A DNA stretch of 42,696 bases from positions 1 to 42,696 of the IMG/VR virus record IMGVR_UViG_3300012005_000014; one strand, given 5' to 3'. Both the position numbers and the translations under genes were made by a program. The notes below the pieces were generated by a model. It had not been told where the DNA came from, searched no databases, and was given only the letters and a program-made list of their open reading frames with translations. Source of the stretch: a virus. Of this stretch, positions 842 through 42,696 are shown one piece after another; position 1 is the stretch's first letter, and each line of letters opens with the position of its first letter.

Positions 842-1710
842 GCCTGCTCACCAAGACGGGCAAGGCGCATGTGTCCTACTCCGCGCTGGACGGCTGGCTC
901 CAGTGCGGTGAGCGGTACCGCCTGGAGCGGATCGTCGGAGCGGAGCAGGGACCGGCCTACTGGTTCGCCGGGGGTACCTCGGTCCACACCGGCACGGAGT
1001 GGCTGGACGCCCACCTGTGGGCAGAGCCAGGGGACTACAACGGCGCTGTCGAGATCGGGGTAGCGAAGTTCCACGAGACCTTCGAGAAGGAACTCGACGC
1101 TGGTGCAGGCCAGGAGTGGCGTGCCGGTGGTCGTGCTACCAAGGCCTTCCCGAACAAGGAAGATGCCGCGTGGTGGGCCGTCCACGGTGCGGTGATGGTG
1201 CAGAACTATGGCGTCTGGCGTGAGAATAACGAACACCTCTCGCTGGCCGCCTTCGTCGCCAGCGACGACGGTCAGATTCCCGGGATCGAGATCCCGATAG
1301 ATTTCGAGATGACAGGCGGAGTCAAGGTCCGGGGCTACATCGACCGAGTGTTCATCGACCAGTCGGACAACCTCCTGATCGTGGACCTCAAGTCAGGCTC
1401 ACGAGAGCCTGCCTCTCCCCTCCAGTTGGCGATCTACCGCATCGGCCTGGAGAAGTGCTACGGAGTGAAGGCCAACCTCGGGTCGTTCTACATGACCCGC
1501 AAGGGCGAACTCAGTGGCATCGAAGACGTTAGTCGCCTAGACGAAGCGATGATTGCACGCTGGTTTCGTGACTTCACACAAGCAGTTGAGAATGACATCT
1601 TCATCCCGCACGTTACGTCCATGTGTGGTACGTGCTCGGTCCAAAACGAGTGCTACGCCTACAGCCCGTCAGCAGTAACCCCCGATTTCTCGTCCGACCT
1701 AGGAGCCTGA
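838..1710 (+). CDS. Cas4/RecB-like PD-(D/E)XK exonuclease with probable iron-sulfur cluster
   Basis: 290 residues. Nuclease motifs occur in order: His50 in GTSVHTGTEW, Asp169 in GYIDRVF, then Asp183 and Lys185 in IVDLKSGS, and a QLAIY motif near residue 197. One N-terminal cysteine (Cys23 in LQCGERYRLE) plus three C-terminal ones (Cys263, Cys266, Cys272) match the iron-sulfur arrangement of Cas4/AddB-type nucleases. The likely role is DNA end resection in phage recombination or replication. Start chosen at ATG 838 (ATGA overlap) rather than the in-frame GTG 823, because the N-terminal helix and Cys23 follow it at the usual spacing. Confidence 0.88.
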   Translation: MSLLTKTGKAHVSYSALDGWLQCGERYRLERIVGAEQGPAYWFAGGTSVHTGTEWLDAHLWAEPGDYNGAVEIGVAKFHETFEKELDAGAGQEWRAGGRATKAFPNKEDAAWWAVHGAVMVQNYGVWRENNEHLSLAAFVASDDGQIPGIEIPIDFEMTGGVKVRGYIDRVFIDQSDNLLIVDLKSGSREPASPLQLAIYRIGLEKCYGVKANLGSFYMTRKGELSGIEDVSRLDEAMIARWFRDFTQAVENDIFIPHVTSMCGTCSVQNECYAYSPSAVTPDFSSDLGA

Positions 1711-2208
1711 GTGACCACAACCGAAGCAGCGTTCTCGTTCACGACCAAGATCAATGGTGACCTTCTGACGGTGCGCGGTGATGGCATCGAGGAGTTCGCA
1801 CAGAACCTCGACGAGGTGACTGGCACCTACCTGGACGGTGTGCTTCTCGGCATCAAGGCCCTCCAGGCCCTCGGTGCGGTGGCACCGATCCTCTCGGCGG
1901 TGGCACCTGTGGTGGACATCCACCAGGGCGTGCAGTCCACTCCCACTCCCAACGTCCCGGCATACCTGAACACCCCGGCTCCCGCTCCGGTGGCCGCTGG
2001 TGCCGAGGTGATGATGGACCGCTACAACAACAAGTGGACGTACAACGATCCGCAGGCACCGACACTTCCCGATGGCCGTGGGGCTTACGCCCGCAAGGAC
2101 TGGGCTGACGCCAAGGGCGTCGAGCGCCACGCCTGGTTGGACCCGATCAAGGGGCCAAAGCCGTTCGCTGCCGGTAGTTCAGAGGCACCCATAATCTGGA
2201 TCCGATGA
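1711..2208 (+). CDS. Unknown early protein between nuclease and ATPase
   Basis: 165 residues from GTG 1711, immediately after the nuclease stop. The N-terminal 35 residues are beta-rich (FSFTTKINGDLLTVRGDGIEEF). A hydrophobic Ala/Val/Leu stretch (about 50-72) follows, then a Pro/Ala linker (80-100) and a C-terminal YNNKWTYNDPQAP region rich in aromatic and basic residues. A single-strand DNA-binding or annealing role would fit its place beside the exonuclease, but no OB-fold signature can be read by eye. Confidence 0.7.
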   Translation: MTTTEAAFSFTTKINGDLLTVRGDGIEEFAQNLDEVTGTYLDGVLLGIKALQALGAVAPILSAVAPVVDIHQGVQSTPTPNVPAYLNTPAPAPVAAGAEVMMDRYNNKWTYNDPQAPTLPDGRGAYARKDWADAKGVERHAWLDPIKGPKPFAAGSSEAPIIWIR

Positions 2209-2486
2209 TGTCGGTATCGACGATGTACACCGTCGTCACCAAGAGCGGTCGGCAGTACGTGATCGACCTGGAGACCAAGCAGTACAAGCCCTCGGGTGAG
2301 GCCCCGATGAACTACTTCGGGGAGCATGGTGTAGCAGACCCGGAGCACGAGCGATGGATGTCGTTCGAGAAGGTCAGCGTGGATGACCTAGCGCGTCTGC
2401 ACTTCTCGGACGCCAGGGGTCAGTGGCGCGTCTCCACCCCGATCCAGCAGGGCCTGGACGAACTCCTCACAGCATTGGACAAGTGA
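2205..2486 (+). CDS. Small hypothetical protein
   Basis: 93 residues from ATG 2205, overlapping the previous stop by ATGA. A second ATG follows directly and another occurs at 2223. The pattern YTVVTKSGRQYVIDLETKQY suggests two beta hairpins, followed by a charged helix at the C-terminus. No catalytic motif seen. Confidence 0.72.
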   Translation: MMSVSTMYTVVTKSGRQYVIDLETKQYKPSGEAPMNYFGEHGVADPEHERWMSFEKVSVDDLARLHFSDARGQWRVSTPIQQGLDELLTALDK

Positions 2487-2489
2487 CCC

Positions 2490-2714
2490 ATGACTATCTA
2501 CAACGTCAGTGACACGGTGGAGATCGTCGAGATCGCTGAGGCAGAGTTCCCATTCGTCGGGACGCTGTGGCGTCAGGTGTATTCGCGGAAGCAGATCAGC
2601 GCCAGTAACCCGCTAATGAATACCGCGGACCTGGACGACATCGGCCGCAGGTACCCCATCAAGACGATCCACGCCGCCACGCCGGAGTACGTACTGGAGT
2701 TGCTGCTCAAGTGA
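2490..2714 (+). CDS. Small hypothetical protein upstream of ATPase
   Basis: 74 residues from ATG 2490, three bases after the previous stop; its own stop overlaps the next start by GTGA (2711-2714). Acidic N-terminal half (VEIVEIAEAEF), no cysteines or membrane segment. Coupling to the ATPase suggests an accessory role in replication, but nothing in the sequence names it. Confidence 0.7.
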   Translation: MTIYNVSDTVEIVEIAEAEFPFVGTLWRQVYSRKQISASNPLMNTADLDDIGRRYPIKTIHAATPEYVLELLLK

Positions 2715-3493
2715 GGTCCCTGTCCCGCACAGTCCGTGAGACAGCCAGTGGCGGGGCATCTATCCCAACGGTGTTCCCGTCCTGGGATGCCAAGCAGATC
2801 CACATTCGTCGAGCGGAGGTCAGCATGATCGCTGGCCAACCAGGAGCGGGTAAGTCAACGCTCGCCCTGGCGCTCGCTGTGGGTGCGAAGGCAGGGACCC
2901 TGTACTTCTCTGCCGACACGCACTCGCACACGATGGCCCTACGTACAGCCGCCATGCTCACCGGAGAAACCACCTCCGCTGTTGAGGCGCAGATGGATGC
3001 GGACCCTGGGTGGGCCTCACGAGTGCTCACCCAGGCAGACCACATTAGGTGGTGCTTCGACTCGGCTCCCTCGCTCAAGGACATCGAGGAGGAAGTCACC
3101 CTGTACCAGGACATGATGGGTTGCAATCCCGAACTCATCGTGATCGACAACGCGATCGACGTCACGCACCAGGACGGTGACGAGTTCTCGTCGCTGCGTT
3201 CTCTGGTACGTGAACTCAAGTGGTGGGCACGGGAGACCGAGGCTGCGCTGCTGGTACTGCACCACACCAGCGAAGCGGTCAACGGCAACCCCTGTCCCCC
3301 ACGGTCAGCGATCCACGGCAAGGTCTCGCAGACACCTGCGGTGATCCTCACCGTTGCTGCCCCGACACAGGGCTTCATGGCCCTGTGTGCGGTGAAGAAC
3401 CGCTACGGACCAGCAGATCCCACCGGCTCAACGCCGACGTGGCTGAACTACGACCCGGCGAGCATGTATCTCGCAGACTCGGGGCAGAGATGA
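2711..3493 (+). CDS. RecA-fold ATPase / DnaB- or RepA-like helicase
   Basis: 260 residues. Walker A GQPGAGKST at 42-50, acidic residue after FSADT (about 66-70), Walker B ELIVIDNAID at 141-150, and a sensor-like LLVLHHTSEA at 180-189. This is the core of the RecA/DnaB-type AAA_25 hexameric ATPases used as replicative helicases or helicase-loading ATPases. It lacks a DnaB N-terminal domain. Upstream of the primase halves and with no phage polymerase present, it probably acts as the replicative helicase. GTG 2711 is supported by the GTGA overlap. Confidence 0.85.
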   Translation: MRSLSRTVRETASGGASIPTVFPSWDAKQIHIRRAEVSMIAGQPGAGKSTLALALAVGAKAGTLYFSADTHSHTMALRTAAMLTGETTSAVEAQMDADPGWASRVLTQADHIRWCFDSAPSLKDIEEEVTLYQDMMGCNPELIVIDNAIDVTHQDGDEFSSLRSLVRELKWWARETEAALLVLHHTSEAVNGNPCPPRSAIHGKVSQTPAVILTVAAPTQGFMALCAVKNRYGPADPTGSTPTWLNYDPASMYLADSGQR

Positions 3494-8897: not shown

Positions 8898-8916
8898 TTG
8901 TTTCACGGTGAAACAA
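8898..8916. promoter_or_regulatory. parS-like palindrome, copy 1
   Basis: TTGTTTCACgGTGAAACAA, a 19-bp dyad around base 8907. Core GTTTCAC-n-GTGAAAC shared with five other sites, all between 8.9 and 17.1 kb. It lies between the terminator and the last leftward gene. Compared with the bacterial partition site TGTTTCACGTGAAACA it has one extra central base. Confidence 0.7.
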
Positions 8917-10255: not shown

Positions 10256-10302
10256 CGCCCCACACCTTCCTCGTAGACCAGCAAAGTCAATGTCATGTCA
10301 AG

Positions 10303-10476
10303 TCACAATCCCTTCGTATGTAGTCGAAACTGGTGCAGGCGCTCATTCTCCGACTCGACGAACTGCACGGCCCTCCAGTTACAGGGTCGGCAGAACGCCA
10401 AGTACCGGATCTCGGGACGCTTCACGTCCACGACTGGTTCAACGATGCGGAGGAGCCGGTGGTAGGAGTGCTGCAC
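10303..10476 (-). CDS. 57-residue zinc-finger-like protein
   Basis: GTG 10476. FCRPCNW (Cys29, Cys32), then a charged helix and histidines (RLHQFRLHTK) form a Cys-Cys-His-His set of the kind found in many short actinophage proteins. Overlaps the upstream small gene by 38 bases in another frame. Start codon uncertain. Confidence 0.55.
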   Translation of the reverse strand: MQHSYHRLLRIVEPVVDVKRPEIRYLAFCRPCNWRAVQFVESENERLHQFRLHTKGL

Positions 10477-10615: not shown

Positions 10616-10870
10616 TTACCTGTGTGACTTGGCATAGGCATTGTCCCATCTCTGCTGCGTGCGACAAAGCACCGTAACGACGGACTCTCCGTCGTCTCCG
10701 ATCACCACCGAGAACGGTCCTCGTTGGAGTGTGCGGTTCTCCCTACCGTGGCGGATCGTGAGCCACGACTGTTCGGGTCGGTCCACGACCCACAGGATGT
10801 CTCGTTCCGAGATGTCGCGGTCAGCCATAGCCTTTCGTGCGTGGAACGTCAGCCTCAGTCTCTCCGGCAT
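10616..10870 (-). CDS. DUF4258-like small protein
   Basis: 84 residues from ATG 10870 with GAGGGGGTGAG upstream; a GTG at 10879 would overlap that site. LTFHARKAMADRDISERDILWVVDRPEQSW matches the start of the DUF4258 pattern (HA...M..R.I....I..V...P), followed by beta strands (TLQRGPFSVVIGDD, ESVVTVLCR). DUF4258 resembles RelE/mRNase-type folds, so a toxin-like or nucleic-acid-related role is conceivable but unproven. It overlaps the WhiB gene 3' end by 50 bases. Confidence 0.68.
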   Translation of the reverse strand: MPERLRLTFHARKAMADRDISERDILWVVDRPEQSWLTIRHGRENRTLQRGPFSVVIGDDGESVVTVLCRTQQRWDNAYAKSHR

Positions 10871-11144
10871 CGAACTCACCCCCTCGTCTCGATCTCAGGT
10901 GTGGCTCGGCTAGTCCGATGCCGTGTACCTGTCGATACATGCTGCGTTCCCCCGGACTCATGCCTCCCCAGTAGCCGTACCGCTCGGAGTGGATCGCCCA
11001 CGTCCGACAGGCAAGCAGCATCGGACAGGAGGCACAGAGGGTCTTTGCTATCGCGTGCTTGGCCTTGAGGTGTGTCTCCCCATCCTCAGAGTAGAAGCAG
11101 TCGGGGTTGGTGCGACACGGTTCGTCGCCCGCGAAGCGAGGCAT
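10821..11144 (-). CDS. WhiB-family iron-sulfur transcription factor
   Basis: 107 residues from ATG 11144 with CGAGGT upstream. Cysteine set: Cys10/Cys16 near the N-terminus, then Cys37-x2-Cys40 and Cys46, the [4Fe-4S] ligands of WhiB-like proteins. The diagnostic G-x-WGG turn follows (GYWGGMSPGER, residues 57-67) with a basic C-terminal tail (LRSRRGGEF) for DNA contact. WhiB proteins occur only in actinobacteria and their phages and bind the host sigma factor, so this one probably redirects or represses host transcription. Confidence 0.92.
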   Translation of the reverse strand: MPRFAGDEPCRTNPDCFYSEDGETHLKAKHAIAKTLCASCPMLLACRTWAIHSERYGYWGGMSPGERSMYRQVHGIGLAEPHLRSRRGGEFDAGETEADVPRTKGYG

Positions 11145-11196
11145 TTGGTACCTCGTTATGAGGTGATCGGATGCCTCGCCATGCCCGTAGTGAACG

Positions 11197-11505
11197 TCAA
11201 GAACCTTTAGGCCCACTCCGTTCACCCGCTACCGGGGTTATCCACTTGTCGCTGCCCTGCTCCTGCACCAGTACGTCACACAGCGAGGTGCTGGCAACGT
11301 CGATGAGGAACTGGTCGAACCGCCTGGACGAGTCGAGGTACACATCGTCCATGCAGTACGCACGCCACGTCAGGGCCTCTTTGATGCCCCGCTTGTCCAT
11401 CTCGTGCCACTGAGCGTCTGCCAACTGTCGCAGCACATTCGCAGCCGTTGATCCGGTGAACGTGTCATGATCGAACACCATGCGCCACCGCTTGTAGTTC
11501 TTCAT
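11197..11505 (-). CDS. Hypothetical protein coupled to amidotransferase
   Basis: 102 residues from ATG 11505, which overlaps the amidotransferase stop (ATGA) and follows GGGAGGA. MVFDHDTFTGSTAANVLRQLADAQWHEMDKRGIKEAL then WRAYCMDDVYLD suggests a mostly helical protein. No known family recognised. Tight coupling suggests it may work with the amidotransferase. Confidence 0.72.
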   Translation of the reverse strand: MKNYKRWRMVFDHDTFTGSTAANVLRQLADAQWHEMDKRGIKEALTWRAYCMDDVYLDSSRRFDQFLIDVASTSLCDVLVQEQGSDKWITPVAGERSGPKGS

Positions 11506-12617
11506 CGGTCCTCCCTTCCCATTGCCAGCGCGAATGCCTTGTCCTCTTCGGACCACTCGGCGTCCTGGAGGCGCTGACGCTCCCAAAACTCCGCGTCCTG
11601 CTCCACTCGGGTAGGAGTGCGCTCAGACGGGTACAGATTGGACGTGCCCTCGCTCATAAGCAGCGACTCATCGTCTTCTGCCAACTTCTCCCACAGATCC
11701 ACGTACATCTCAGCCGTGTAGCCGCGAGTGTCCTTCATGCTGTTCTTGACGAGTCCCTTCACGTCCTTCGGTCCAAGGACCGTTGGGGTGACGTAGGTTC
11801 CCTTGACGGCGTTCTTACCGATGCCGCTAGTGGACCAATCGTTGTACTTGTACTTGCTGTTCCAACCCGAGTTAGCCTCGAACGTCAGGCAGGTTTCCAC
11901 CCGTCCATTGGTGACCTGGAGGAACGTGCCCTCGTTCACCACGTAGGCGTTCTCGATGTCGAACTTGGCTGCCTCACACGCCCCCACCAGGAGTGCCAGC
12001 GTGCTGGCAAACACCAGTGAGCCGTGTGCGTTGCTGGCTAAGGCCAGGGGACTACTACTTCCCCGAGCCAGGTTCAGCGTGGACGCACCGTTGGCCTGTA
12101 GTTGGACCCTGCGGTCCATCCAGGCGATTGCCATGCTGCCCTCGATCGTTGCGAGCGCAGCCGGGACGGCTAGACCCTGATCCTTGGTTCGACTCAGTAG
12201 CGCGAAGATCGCCTCGGAGTCCACTTCGGCGTAACGCGACATCTTGTTCGTCCTGAACAACTGGTTGTCGTTCTGGATCATGCCGTTGTGAACACCCACG
12301 ACTCGTCCGTGGATGATCGGGTGGTTGTTGGCGTTGTTGGACGCCAACCCTTGTGTTGCGTAGCGAGTGTGGAAGATCGCCGTAGTCGTTGCGCCTGGGA
12401 GTCTGTGGTAGTACTTCTCCCACACGACGGCTGCGTCTACGTTTTTCTTCCACGTCCGCGTCCGGTTGTTCTTGGAGTCGATCCACGACCAACCACACGC
12501 ATCCTTGCCACGAGAGTCGATCTCCCACAGCAGGTTCGATGCGAGTCGTCGAGCGTTCTCACTACTCTCGAAGAACGGATCGAGCGTGTTCGCGTTCCAT
12601 CCAGCGATGCCACACAT
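11502..12617 (-). CDS. Class II (Ntn) glutamine amidotransferase
   Basis: 371 residues beginning MCGIAGW, so after Met removal Cys2 is the N-terminal nucleophile of the Ntn-hydrolase glutaminase family (as in PurF, GlmS and GltB). Other signatures: IDSRGKDACGW, the glutamine-binding HTRYATQG, NNHPI, and VGVHNGMIQN. The glutaminase domain spans about residues 1-210. The remaining part has no synthase domain, so ammonia or the hydrolysed product must go to a separate enzyme; the amidoligase in the same block is the obvious partner. ATG 12617 has AGAAAGG upstream. A parS-like palindrome sits 20 bases before the start. Confidence 0.9.
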   Translation of the reverse strand: MCGIAGWNANTLDPFFESSENARRLASNLLWEIDSRGKDACGWSWIDSKNNRTRTWKKNVDAAVVWEKYYHRLPGATTTAIFHTRYATQGLASNNANNHPIIHGRVVGVHNGMIQNDNQLFRTNKMSRYAEVDSEAIFALLSRTKDQGLAVPAALATIEGSMAIAWMDRRVQLQANGASTLNLARGSSSPLALASNAHGSLVFASTLALLVGACEAAKFDIENAYVVNEGTFLQVTNGRVETCLTFEANSGWNSKYKYNDWSTSGIGKNAVKGTYVTPTVLGPKDVKGLVKNSMKDTRGYTAEMYVDLWEKLAEDDESLLMSEGTSNLYPSERTPTRVEQDAEFWERQRLQDAEWSEEDKAFALAMGREDR

Positions 12618-12635
12618 AGCAGAACCTTTCTTAGT

Positions 12636-12652
12636 TGTTTCACGGTGAAACA
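12636..12652. promoter_or_regulatory. parS-like palindrome, copy 2
   Basis: TGTTTCACgGTGAAACA just upstream of the amidotransferase ribosome-binding site. Position suits an operator, or a protein roadblock, for the leftward transcript. As RNA it could form only a weak stem and has no U-tract, so a terminator is unlikely. Confidence 0.7.
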
Positions 12653-12774
12653 GAGGTGGATCAGGTGGCGAGGCAGTACTCGGCGTTGATGACGGTGAGC
12701 GCCTCGGTGATCCACGTCGGCGTAGGCGTGGTGATCGGTGCGAACTGACCGATGCGATTCCGTGGACGAGGCCT

Positions 12775-13485
12775 CTAAGTTGCTACGCCCACGAGGGCAG
12801 GACTGTTGACAGGCAAGATCGACGACCATTCACCGTCGAACTCCCCGTCCTCCTCGCAGCAAGTTCCGTTGCTAGCGGAGATCCAGCCGTCGCTGTCGTA
12901 GTTGTCTTCGTCGGGCTCGTAGCAGCCGTCGCAGAACTCATTTTCGGGGTCGTCGGCGTCCGCACAGTCGTACAGCCTTTCGCAGTTGTCACAGTTGCGA
13001 ACGCTGTCGTGGTCGTCTATCTCGTGACCGCCGGTCTGGCACCAATCGCAGTACGGGCGACACCCGCAGTCGCAGTAGCCCTCGCCGCAGTTGGAGCAGT
13101 TTCCGTGAGCCACGGTGAAGTCGTGACTCGATGACGAGTTGATGTACAACTCCGCAGCGGTTTGGCCGTGGTTGCCTATGCGGATACAGATGTGGCAGAG
13201 CCACTCGCCATCGCTAAAGGCGATGCTCTGCTCCTGCTCACCGAACGCCAGCGAGACACCGAGGTGCGTGTTCATGACGGCGAGCATCGCCCTGCGAGCC
13301 ATCATGGGCATTCTGACGTGATTACCGGATCGGTAATCCGGTAAGGCACTCAGAGCCACGTCGATGTCGAACGGCTCTAGCCCGAGGTCGCTGTCGGCGT
13401 TGCGCCTTGCCGCCTCGGCAGTCATGTCGTACTCACGAGCGATCTCGTCGAGATGCTCGTGGGCGAACTGCGCGATCGTGGTCAT
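12775..13485 (-). CDS. Cys-rich zinc protein of the amidoligase block
   Basis: 236 residues from ATG 13485 (GAGAGGCA upstream). Helical N-terminal domain of about 100 residues, then a dense zinc region from about 125: CSNCGEGYCDCGCRPYCDWC, CDNCERLYDC and CDGCYE, about six CxxC-like pairs. The tail is acidic (EDGEFDGEW). Such clusters suggest multiple treble-clef or ribbon modules for protein binding. It lies directly downstream of the amidoligase. After its TAG stop the same frame stays open for 37 more codons, to 12661. Confidence 0.78.
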   Translation of the reverse strand: MTTIAQFAHEHLDEIAREYDMTAEAARRNADSDLGLEPFDIDVALSALPDYRSGNHVRMPMMARRAMLAVMNTHLGVSLAFGEQEQSIAFSDGEWLCHICIRIGNHGQTAAELYINSSSSHDFTVAHGNCSNCGEGYCDCGCRPYCDWCQTGGHEIDDHDSVRNCDNCERLYDCADADDPENEFCDGCYEPDEDNYDSDGWISASNGTCCEEDGEFDGEWSSILPVNSPALVGVAT

Positions 13486-13513
13486 AGCATTGCCTCTCTG
13501 TGTAAAGTCACGA

Positions 13514-14905
13514 TCAGACCAGCAACGCGGGAACGTCGCGGGTCAGGTAAGCCTGGGTGACCTCCGTGGTGTACGGGGCCAGTGCGTCGAGCAGTTGGGT
13601 CTTGCTGGTTGCTGGCATCCGAGACAGCAGTTTCATCTCGTCCGTGTCGTGAGCCTGGGCGAACGAGATCAGCGACATGAGCAGCGCGATCCATTCCGCG
13701 ATCTGACGCGGGAGGGTCGTGCCATTGCGCTGCCGGAACTCGAACGTGCCACGCTCGGAGTACCAGCCTGGGTTGATGACCTTGGAGCGGTCCCAGTTGA
13801 AACTGCCCTCCTCGGCACGCTCGATGTTGTACCGATCCAGGTGCTGGGCGTAGTTGGCGTTGCTGCGGGACGGCGAGATGTAGGACTCATCGATGACCTT
13901 CTGTGCCCACACGTAGGCATAGACGACGTTGAGCGGGTTGGCAGTCCCCAGGTCGATGTGGACGTGACAGCCGCACGTCCTGTGCGCGGAGCGGTAGCCC
14001 TCGTCACGCAGGATCTTGCAGATCGTCTCGATCTCGGACATGGCTTGCAGCGACTCCCACTTGAGGATTCGCGTCACCACTTCCACGCCGTCACGAAGCG
14101 ATCCGTCGTGCTTGACCTGTGTCGTGTGGTACTCACGACCCGAGTAGTCACCCGGCTGCGCCTCGACACCAGCCTCGTTGAGCAGTTGGGCAATCCGATG
14201 CCGACTGACTTCGGGATAGTCCGGGTTGAGCGAGTCAACTCGCTCACACTCGAACTCCACACCGAACGGTGTGCCTGCTCCCCCGGACACGAAGTCCGGC
14301 TCCGGGAGTGGCTGTGATGCTGTCCGTGGGTATATCCGGTCGGTCTCACAGTCTGTTCGACGAATGAACAGTTCCTCGGTTGCCTCGAAGTCCTGCACGT
14401 ACACGCCACGAACGTCCGTCCCTGCCATGATGGACGAGTTCCGAAGACTGGCGTTGCGAACGACCGTGGAGATGCTTGGACGGTCCCGCGGTACCTCCCA
14501 TCCGACCCTGCTGGAGTGGATGAGCGAGTCAGTAATCCTCCCGCTGTGGACACCACCACCCGTGATCCACGAATCGCCTCCGACTATGGACGCGCCGGTG
14601 ACGAGGGAGTAGTTCTCCACCAGGGCGTAATCCTGGATTCGTGCGCTACCCAGGACGATCGAGTGTCGATCTATCCAGGCACCGCCCTGGTCTGGATCGG
14701 CTGGTTCGCCCTCCAGGTTGTAGGTCTGCTCGACCCATCCCCCGAGATCCCCAAGCACGACCAACTCGTTGCGACTGCTGCCCGTCTGAGGGTCACAGCG
14801 ACGAATGTAGAAGTTATCGTCAGCCTGGATGCGGTGGAGGATGACGCGACGCCCACCGGGTTCTATGTGCTCCATGGTTTCGTCGGTCAGGTGATAAAGA
14901 GGCAT
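13514..14905 (-). CDS. Amidoligase (glutamine-synthetase-like COOH-NH2 ligase) with N-terminal beta-helix
   Basis: 463 residues. Residues 45-175 show short repeats (LGDLGGWVEQTYNL, GGAWIDRHSIVLGSARI, DYALVENYSLVTGASIVGG) typical of a left-handed beta-helix. From 210 on comes the amidoligase domain: GVEFECE (215-221), KHDGSL (265-270), GVEVVT (273-278), CGCHVHID (311-318) and GTFEFRQRNGT (386-396), the Glu/His/Arg motifs of GS-like ligases that join a carboxylate to an amine using ATP. Phage members (phiEco32-type COOH-NH2 ligases) are predicted to modify peptides or cell-wall components. The substrate here is unknown. The amidotransferase downstream in the same block supports a working pair. 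Confidence 0.82.
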   Translation of the reverse strand: MPLYHLTDETMEHIEPGGRRVILHRIQADDNFYIRRCDPQTGSSRNELVVLGDLGGWVEQTYNLEGEPADPDQGGAWIDRHSIVLGSARIQDYALVENYSLVTGASIVGGDSWITGGGVHSGRITDSLIHSSRVGWEVPRDRPSISTVVRNASLRNSSIMAGTDVRGVYVQDFEATEELFIRRTDCETDRIYPRTASQPLPEPDFVSGGAGTPFGVEFECERVDSLNPDYPEVSRHRIAQLLNEAGVEAQPGDYSGREYHTTQVKHDGSLRDGVEVVTRILKWESLQAMSEIETICKILRDEGYRSAHRTCGCHVHIDLGTANPLNVVYAYVWAQKVIDESYISPSRSNANYAQHLDRYNIERAEEGSFNWDRSKVINPGWYSERGTFEFRQRNGTTLPRQIAEWIALLMSLISFAQAHDTDEMKLLSRMPATSKTQLLDALAPYTTEVTQAYLTRDVPALLV

Positions 14906-14906
14906 C

Positions 14907-15056
14907 TCACTGTCCCTTCTGCGCTAAGTCTGTTTCACCGTGAAACAGGTTTGCCTTACCTACCTCGACTCCCAGGTGGAAGCCGAGTTGGAACAGTCCC
15001 CACAAGCCGAGGACCCCGAGCGCGATCAGCGCGGATACCGCGAGTGATAAGGTCAT
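14907..15056 (-). CDS. 49-residue membrane microprotein upstream of amidoligase
   Basis: ATG 15056 lies one base from the upstream stop, and the TGA lies one base before the amidoligase ATG, so it is probably coupled. One hydrophobic helix (LAVSALIALGVLGLWGLF) is followed by a charged tail. The tail's NLFHGETD is encoded by the third parS-like palindrome, so a DNA site and a coding sequence coincide. Confidence 0.62.
   Translation of the reverse strand: MTLSLAVSALIALGVLGLWGLFQLGFHLGVEVGKANLFHGETDLAQKGQ
14930..14948. promoter_or_regulatory. parS-like palindrome, copy 3, inside a small gene
   Basis: CTGTTTCACcGTGAAACAG, a 19-bp dyad within the last third of the 49-residue membrane protein gene and about 25 bases upstream of the amidoligase start. 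Confidence 0.7.
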
Positions 15057-15057
15057 G

Positions 15058-15210
15058 TCATGTCACGATCCGACGTTGGCCGTACCTGGCTATGGCGTCG
15101 GACAGCGGGATGTTGTACTCCATGGGGTTCCACCCCAGGTCCAGCACGGTGACGTACTGAACGCCGTCGATGGTGCCCTCGTCCGAGAACGTGAAGGATG
15201 AGCGGCTCAT
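15058..15210 (-). CDS. 50-residue hypothetical protein
   Basis: ATG 15210 overlaps the upstream stop (ATGA); its stop is one base from the next start. Reads as a small beta protein (FTFSDEGTIDGVQYVTVLDL) with a C-terminal helix (LSDAIARYGQRR). Below usual gene-length cut-offs, but supported by coupling on both sides. Confidence 0.58.
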   Translation of the reverse strand: MSRSSFTFSDEGTIDGVQYVTVLDLGWNPMEYNIPLSDAIARYGQRRIVT

Positions 15211-15404
15211 GTCAAGTCACAATCCGAGCAACACGGGAGCGGTCGGCCATCATTAGGGATGGGAAGGTCGAACTCCGCACCACACCAGCCGCACCGATAG
15301 ACGTACGGGTAACAGACCGTGCAACCCTCGGCACCGCACCCGTAGTGTGATGCCTTGACTAGCGCGTTGCCATCACAGTCGAGGTCGTGGTACGTGGCGA
15401 TCAC
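15207..15404 (-). CDS. 65-residue zinc-ribbon protein
   Basis: GTG 15404 overlaps the upstream stop (GTGA); a longer start at GTG 15428 is possible. Cysteines in CGAEGCTVC, CGWCG and CCSDC give two or three CxxC pairs, a compact zinc ribbon. Function unknown; one of at least three zinc-ribbon genes in a row. Confidence 0.68.
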   Translation of the reverse strand: MIATYHDLDCDGNALVKASHYGCGAEGCTVCYPYVYRCGWCGAEFDLPIPNDGRPLPCCSDCDLT

Positions 15405-15737: not shown

Positions 15738-15839
15738 TCACCGCCCCGGGATCGAGGTGGTGAGGACCACGAACATCCCCGCTACGCCAACCCAGGTCGT
15801 CAGTGCCACCCAAGCGAGTACCGACTCAATCCGTTTCAC
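15738..15839 (-). CDS. 33-residue membrane microprotein, first gene after the leftward promoter
   Basis: GTG 15839 lies inside a parS-like palindrome (15833-15847). MKRIESVLAWVALTTWVG then VAGMFVVLTTSIPGR form a single hydrophobic helix after a basic start. It is the first ORF behind the promoter at 15935-15964. No strong ribosome-binding site; a second in-frame GTG would give 23 residues. Confidence 0.42.
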   Translation of the reverse strand: MKRIESVLAWVALTTWVGVAGMFVVLTTSIPGR

Positions 15840-15847
15840 CGTGAAAC
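15833..15847. promoter_or_regulatory. parS-like palindrome, copy 4
   Basis: GTTTCACcGTGAAAC, 37 bases from copy 5, centre to centre. It covers the likely start codon of the 33-residue membrane protein. Confidence 0.7.
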
Positions 15848-15869
15848 ACCGTCCTTCGCTGTCATTCCC

Positions 15870-15884
15870 GTTTCACCGTGAAAC
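15870..15884. promoter_or_regulatory. parS-like palindrome, copy 5
   Basis: GTTTCACcGTGAAAC, about 50 bases downstream of the predicted transcription start of the leftward promoter at 15935-15964. With copy 4 it forms a pair spaced 37 bp, roughly 3.5 helical turns. Confidence 0.7.
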
Positions 15885-15934
15885 AGGAGCGACCCCGGTT
15901 CAGAACACCAGGGCCTTACTCGACCAATAGCACA

Positions 15935-17075: not shown

Positions 17076-17096
17076 TGCCACTAACGGGTCAATGTT

Positions 17097-17111
17097 GTTT
17101 CATCGTGAAAC
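17097..17111. promoter_or_regulatory. parS-like palindrome, copy 6 (one mismatch)
   Basis: GTTTCATcGTGAAAC; differs from the other copies in one arm base. It lies just upstream of the regulator's -35 element, where a bound protein could activate or repress. Confidence 0.65.
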
Positions 17112-17509
17112 ACGCAATGGCAGGCAATGGGCACCGTAAGGGTATGCGAACATACGTTCGTATGTGTTGCGTGTGCATATGGTTGAGCGTTCACATATGT
17201 GTGTGTGTACCTGTCCGCTGTTACATATCCATACATCGACGTCCATCGATGCATCATGTCCGCATATCCTGCACTTCTCGATAGGTGGACTACACCTACA
17301 GTCCTACTTACCGACGACCTGGCAGCACCGTAAGGTCTTGACCCGGAGGTTGTTTATCCCGGGATGGGGATGATGATGATGTACCCCACCGACCATCCGT
17401 GGATAACCCTAGTTGTCCTAGTTTGCCCCAACTTGGGACCAGGAAGTACCGTGATCTACGTCACAGTTTGCTAACGCAACGGCGATACCCTTGATCAAAC
17501 CCTAATTTC
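17112..17509. other. Gene-free divergent control region
   Basis: No plausible gene. It is poorer in G+C than its surroundings and contains palindromes ACATACGttCGTATGT (17150-17165), CACATATGTG (17192-17201) and ATCCCGGGAT, a short GAT repeat near 17370, and a DnaA-box-like CGTGGATAA (17398-17406; complement TTATCCACG, 8 of 9 to TTATCCACA). It separates leftward accessory from rightward late genes, a common place for an origin or late operators. Confidence 0.5.
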
Positions 17510-42556: not shown

Positions 42557-42696
42557 ATGCCAGCACCCCAGTTGGTTCCCGATAAGACCACGTTGCAAGC
42601 ATGGATCAGGGAAGGCCTGACCCACAAGCAGATGGCACAGCGGGTGTTCGAGACGACCGGCCACAAGATCGGTCGTACGGCAATCTCGAACGCGAT
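42557..42696 (+). CDS. HTH DNA-binding protein, N-terminal part (continues at base 2-406)
   Basis: ATG 42557 with GAGGAGGTG upstream. MPAPQLVPDKTTLQAWIREG leads into the helix-turn-helix; the frame runs off the end of the window and continues at base 100 when the duplicated 98 bases are merged. The protein is described at its other part. Confidence 0.82.
   Translation, partial: MPAPQLVPDKTTLQAWIREGLTHKQMAQRVFETTGHKIGRTAISNA
42599..42696. repeat. 98-base terminal duplication (identical to 2-99)
   Basis: Bases 42599-42696 equal bases 2-99 exactly; base 1 (G) differs from 42598 (A). The duplication is inside one gene, so it is most simply the overlap of a circular assembly. Confidence 0.95.

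Follow-up and report, generated by a model that had tools for sequence, protein, structure and literature searches.

A predicted amidoligase fused to a YdcK-like β-solenoid and encoded beside a class II glutamine amidotransferase in an uncultured phage

An uncultured phage carries a gene in which a YdcK-like β-solenoid is fused to a predicted glutamine synthetase (GS)-like amidoligase, in the neighbourhood of a gene for a class II (Ntn) glutamine amidotransferase (GATase). The fusion is the new part of this locus, the enzyme pair being already known from other phages. We propose, with a probability of about 0.45, that the locus encodes a glutamine-dependent amide-forming module whose likeliest substrate would be the carboxylate of a peptide belonging to the host envelope.

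Genome and three-gene locus

The window analysed is the entire IMG/VR virus record IMGVR_UViG_3300012005_000014 (positions 1-42,696; 42,696 nt). The record itself is classed as linear, and the 98-base direct repeat found at both of its ends (2-99 = 42599-42696) indicates that the genome is probably complete. Profile searches matched a terminase, a portal, a head protein, an endolysin and an integrase, and no PADLOC anti-phage defence family was matched at E<=0.01. By protein, Immanuel3, ZooBear and other Streptomyces phages are the nearest named relatives (~28% identity), which makes an actinobacterial host likely.

A sequence-only reading had placed a fused ligase, a Cys-rich protein and an amidotransferase together in this region. 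All three open reading frames are present on the minus strand within 11502-14905 (Table 1), with the Cys-rich gene as the single gene between the two co-directional enzyme genes. Third-codon GC of 0.76-0.79 across the three frames, together with Shine-Dalgarno-like sequences ahead of ATG (AAGAAAGG, AGAGAGG and AGAAGGG), marks them as genes. The motifs listed in that reading were found again, MCGIAGW, HTRYATQG and VGVHNGMI in the amidotransferase and GDLGGWV, GVEFE, KHDGS, CGCHVHID and FEFRQRNGT in the 463-residue protein.

Table 1. Positions of the features discussed
Feature	Position	Strand	Basis or remark
DUF4258 protein	10616-10879	-	2e-5, at curated cut-off; overlaps WhiB gene
WhiB-family regulator	10821-11225	-	Pfam 2e-12; two genes downstream of GATase
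Class II (Ntn) glutamine amidotransferase, 371 aa	11502-12617	-	GATase_6, phrog_14519, alignment, GlmS structures
Cys-rich protein, 236 aa	12775-13485	-	between both enzyme genes; coding-like GC3 0.79
Fusion protein, YdcK-like β-solenoid + Amidoligase_2 (GS-like), 463 aa	13514-14905	-	Pfam, PHROGs, NCBIfam
GS-fold amidoligase domain (predicted), residues ~210-455	13541-14278	-	conservation, model, structure matches
N-terminal β-domain + β-solenoid (predicted), residues ~1-130	14516-14905	-	AF2 model, BFVD matches
Palindrome copies	8898-8915, 12635-12652, 14930-14947, 15831-15848, 15868-15885, 17095-17112		accessory operon only
Palindrome TGTTTCACGGTGAAACA	12635-12652	.	18 bp upstream of GATase start codon
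Palindrome TGTTTCACCGTGAAACA	14930-14947	.	~25 bp upstream of amidoligase start codon

Predicted enzymes of the locus

Residues 210-455 of the fusion protein match Pfam Amidoligase_2 (PF12224; 4e-15, 56.7 bits against a cut-off of 22) and phrog_2443 (3e-16), and the ligase is thus of this family instead of the phiEco32-type COOH-NH2 ligase family (PF14395) suggested earlier. A scan of viral contigs with the single ligase protein gave no relative; relatives were then sought with profiles, because single-protein scans with the ligase and with the Cys-rich protein had yielded none. The expected ligase residues are intact in these homologues, E217, E219, D267, E275, H314, H316, N378, E389 and R391 being invariant in 70/70 relatives of the alignment. 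E217-x-E219, H314-x-H316 and E389-x-R391 resemble motifs of glutamine synthetase and are, by this likeness, presumably the counterparts of its metal and ATP sites. In an AlphaFold model built with 70 relatives, pLDDT of the ligase domain was mostly >85, and VIA-align superposed the domain on glutamine synthetase with a Z of 15.3 (223 residues, rmsd 3.6), in agreement with the GS-like fold proposed from the motifs. The five significant Foldseek matches, the sole ones below 0.001, were YbdK-type ligases, PafA and Dop (best YbdK 2e-6; PafA 2e-4).

The amidotransferase matches GATase_6 (4e-15, 56 bits against a cut-off of 27), phrog_14519 (1.6e-42) and GlmS structures (6e-11), and more weakly NCBIfam EgtC (5e-7). 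An alignment with four phage relatives shows Cys2, Arg85, Asn111-Gly112 and Asp133 to be invariant, so that all traits of a class II GATase are present: the catalytic Cys after Met, the Asn-Gly oxyanion pair and the glutamine-binding Arg and Asp. The conserved Cys2, the above-threshold domain match and the pairing in relatives sustain the view of this protein as an Ntn partner of the ligase. As predicted from folds and residues, the catalytic capacity of both enzymes is well supported.

Linkage of the two genes in other phages

With the amidotransferase as the only seed, 39 viral loci were obtained, several of them near-duplicates. An amidoligase lies within 3 kb in 37 of the 39, always on the same strand and with a median gap of 4 bp; the amidoligase-GATase pairing is therefore not due to chance. 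Twenty paired ligases remain in this set after reduction at 80% identity, with a 3 kb flank required on both sides. When the amidoligase served as seed, GATase was present in 35/80 viral loci and γ-glutamyl cyclotransferase in 21/80. The 45/80 loci with no nearby GATase, some of which are truncated, amount to more than half and indicate that GATase-derived ammonia is not universally needed by amidoligases. In part of a 158-kb viral contig (L002), two GATases alternate with two amidoligases, one of the latter a weak match.

A close parallel is found in Arthrobacter phages, whose hosts are actinobacterial, as is likely here, and in which an Amidoligase_2-like ligase adjoins a class II GATase with the gene order of the present locus (Kovu 97-98, Wheelbite 93-94, Ottawa 65-66); Kovu and Ottawa also have a WhiB gene in the vicinity. 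However, their ligases share just 24-27% identity with that of the present phage and lack the β-solenoid, and their pairs have a γ-glutamyl cyclotransferase directly upstream, which this phage does not. A cassette of amidoligase, GATase, COOH-NH2 ligase, ATP-grasp and cyclotransferase is known from the podoviruses LUZ24/UFV-P2, RIO-1/PSA-HP1 and phiEco32. It resembles the present locus in having Amidoligase_2 and GATase_6 within a single early-gene block (PMC3890496, PMC5498523), although only two of its five enzymes were found here, in an unrelated type of phage and with a β-solenoid fused to one of them. For these podoviruses and for the Arthrobacter phages, the pair is predicted to modify the envelope. 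Our own profiles for ATP-grasp and COOH-NH2_lig, which are not the Pfam families, gave no match in the window.

The cassette is listed for LUZ24-like phages (PMC3890496), and for RIO-1-like podoviruses it is described as serving peptidoglycan modification, with prevention of superinfection as its hypothesised role (PMC5498523). A paper on OM43 phages lists it, counts amidoligase/GATase among auxiliary metabolic genes and predicts superinfection exclusion (PMC10580990). Cyclotransferase and amidoligase are noted in Arthrobacter cluster AL (PMC5513430) and in clostridial prophages (PMC11318856). Amidoligase-GATase pairs are spread across phages of many hosts, and the papers searched gave no biochemistry for any phage Amidoligase_2 protein and no measured activity or substrate. 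The fusion offers a handle in this respect, namely one protein with a candidate docking domain whose binding partner could be sought.

The β-solenoid fusion

The N-terminal part of the fusion protein was folded separately because a first model left residues 73-202 unresolved. Over residues 1-130, the resulting AF2 model predicts a small β-domain that continues as a β-solenoid (pLDDT 76-97 per block); residues 132-205 are not resolved in the models. The N-terminal β-helix matches phrog_5070 (4e-8), and this match together with the model bears out the fusion noticed at first as a GDLGGWV-type β-helix ahead of the ligase motifs. Matches of the model in BFVD were hexapeptide, YdcK and polymer-forming proteins (best E 3e-6), whereas Foldseek against PDB gave none at E<=0.001 (best YdcK 2pig, 0.22) and PF18836 did not match the domain. 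The NCBIfam YdcK_fam score (2e-5, 23.5 bits) lies far under the cut-off of 350. On the strength of the phrog_5070 match and the predicted fold, with YdcK_fam below its cut-off, the domain is labelled YdcK-like and is not a member of the YdcK family.

Phage proteins of phrog_5070 and phrog_7964 have in common with this domain the LHRI...GDLGGWVE...NL signature and the fold, but they stand alone, while the domain described here is fused to an enzyme. The fusion was seen in no other locus among 129 ligase/GATase loci, 78 β-solenoid loci and a second set of 79. Nevertheless, unfused β-solenoid genes adjoin amidoligase cassettes in three settings. In IMG/VR contig 3300037010_000255 (L372), two YdcK-type genes, a possible ATP-grasp (weak match, E 0.18), a GS-like ligase and a GATase follow one another; β-solenoid, ligase and GATase are side by side as in the present phage, but as separate genes of divergent sequence. 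In L128/L191, a group of GATase, COOH-NH2 ligase and ligase follows three β-solenoids at a distance of 3 kb. The third setting is that of the clostridial loci L148 and L170, with ligase, cyclotransferase and an unfused β-solenoid, whose ligases are 76% identical and were counted as a single lineage. In L128, the three tandem YdcK-type genes, near a phiEco32-like ligase cassette, occupy positions 1002-3047.

These cases suggest a partnership of β-solenoid and amidoligase that is real but rare. Judged by how seldom either gene type occurs in the collection, their meetings look more frequent than chance. The loci seeded with the β-solenoid weakened the idea that it belongs to the cassette as a rule: an amidoligase lay within 3 kb in 0/78 viral loci and a GATase in 1/78, and in the second set both enzymes were present in 1/79 (L372, with its separate genes). 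It is rather doubtful, though conceivable, that YdcK-type β-solenoids recur in phage amidoligase systems as a part not recognised before, which would serve as a scaffold or dock the substrate and has here been welded onto the ligase. If this were true, the fusion could point to the substrate.

Possible function of the module

In the proposed module, the amidotransferase would split glutamine via its N-terminal Cys2 and supply ammonia, or else handle a γ-glutamyl bond, and the GS-like domain would turn a carboxylate into an activated acyl phosphate at the expense of ATP before forming an amide on it. It is likely that ligase and GATase act in one reaction, and the fused β-solenoid would most likely oligomerise the ligase or dock it on its substrate. 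The direction of the chemistry is conjectural and the substrate even more so; the latter would most likely be an envelope peptide carboxylate such as that of the peptidoglycan stem of an actinobacterium, and infected cells may thereby be altered against competing phages or lysis. The envelope hypothesis reportedly originates with Iyer et al. 2009.

The amide-forming module is favoured by the Amidoligase_2 and GATase_6 domains, the GS fold, the conserved residues, the linkage of the two genes in GATase-seeded loci, the gene order shared with Kovu, Ottawa and Wheelbite, and the palindromes ahead of both enzyme genes. As a general idea, amide-bond chemistry had been put forward from the motifs and is supported by the GS-like fold and the intact predicted catalytic residues. 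For an envelope module speak the published cassette predictions (PMC5498523, PMC10580990); no signal linking the enzyme pair to the cell wall was found in this phage.

Frequent γ-glutamyl cyclotransferase partners elsewhere (besides the 21/80 viral loci, 20/41 and, in a sample of Clostridia, 27/30 loci with the gene adjoining the ligase) hint at γ-glutamyl chemistry and make γ-glutamyl turnover an alternative to an ammonia-based module. By analogy, the ligase would couple glutamate through its γ-carboxylate to an amine, and later removal of the glutamate would fall to the Ntn enzyme, with no transfer of ammonia. Ergothioneine synthesis, in which EgtA is the ligase and EgtC the hydrolase, is a model for such a cycle. 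The best solved structures in Foldseek, the γ-glutamylcysteine-ligase-like YbdK and PafA, which uses a γ-glutamyl carboxylate, fit this scheme, as do the cyclotransferases paired with the ligase of relatives and the weak EgtC match. However, the amidotransferase is closer to GlmS and PurF than to EgtC, and the whole record yielded no match to the γ-glutamyl cyclotransferase family (PF06094) at E<=1, a search that was positive in control genomes; we consider such a cycle unlikely here.

Synthesis of an amide metabolite for host takeover or phage competition appears quite improbable: small molecules are often targets of GS-like ligases and PMC10580990 places amidoligase/GATase among auxiliary metabolic genes, but no further biosynthetic gene was recognised among the profiled genes. 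Least probable is a PafA-like modification of a side chain on a phage or host protein recruited by the β-solenoid, for which PafA and Dop among the five Foldseek matches and a plausible docking surface would argue, since no conserved dedicated substrate gene adjoins the pair in relatives and the Cys-rich neighbour is an orphan.

Cys-rich neighbour and putative control sites

The Cys-rich protein had been taken for a third member of the set, yet searches of Pfam, PHROGs, NCBIfam, phages, plasmids and viral contigs gave no relative for it, and it is probably a zinc-binding orphan. As the enzyme genes nearly abut in relatives, its gene is best seen as an insertion between them. Likewise, nothing was found to link the small zinc and membrane proteins of the operon to the enzymes as substrates or adaptors.

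A 17-base palindrome, TGTTTCACNGTGAAACA, occurs in six copies (one with one mismatch), all within 8.9-17.1 kb, against a mean of 0.8 in shuffled sequences, of which 0/100 reach six. A copy lies directly ahead of each enzyme gene, which suggests that the two are controlled together. The palindrome is similar to the chromosomal parS site TGTTTCACGTGAAACA, a 16-base sequence that appears in papers on parS, but has an additional base at its centre. Five copies were also observed in a 2-kb stretch (C1:6557-8509) of another phage record, G393, which is barely related otherwise, a terminase being its sole match to the window; a search of G393, run with no positive control there, found neither enzyme.

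Another repeat, TGTNANGTCACRATC, is located at 10296-10310, 13501-13515, 15056-15070 and 15210-15224 (shuffles average 0.1), in each case 0-40 bp ahead of a minus-strand start codon, one of the four being that of the Cys-rich gene, and recalls the start-associated sequences of mycobacteriophages. Finally, a LexA/SOS-box-like palindrome, CGAACATACGTTCG, lies at 17147-17160, with the leftward operon on one side and the structural genes on the other, and would be consistent with a temperate phage under SOS control.
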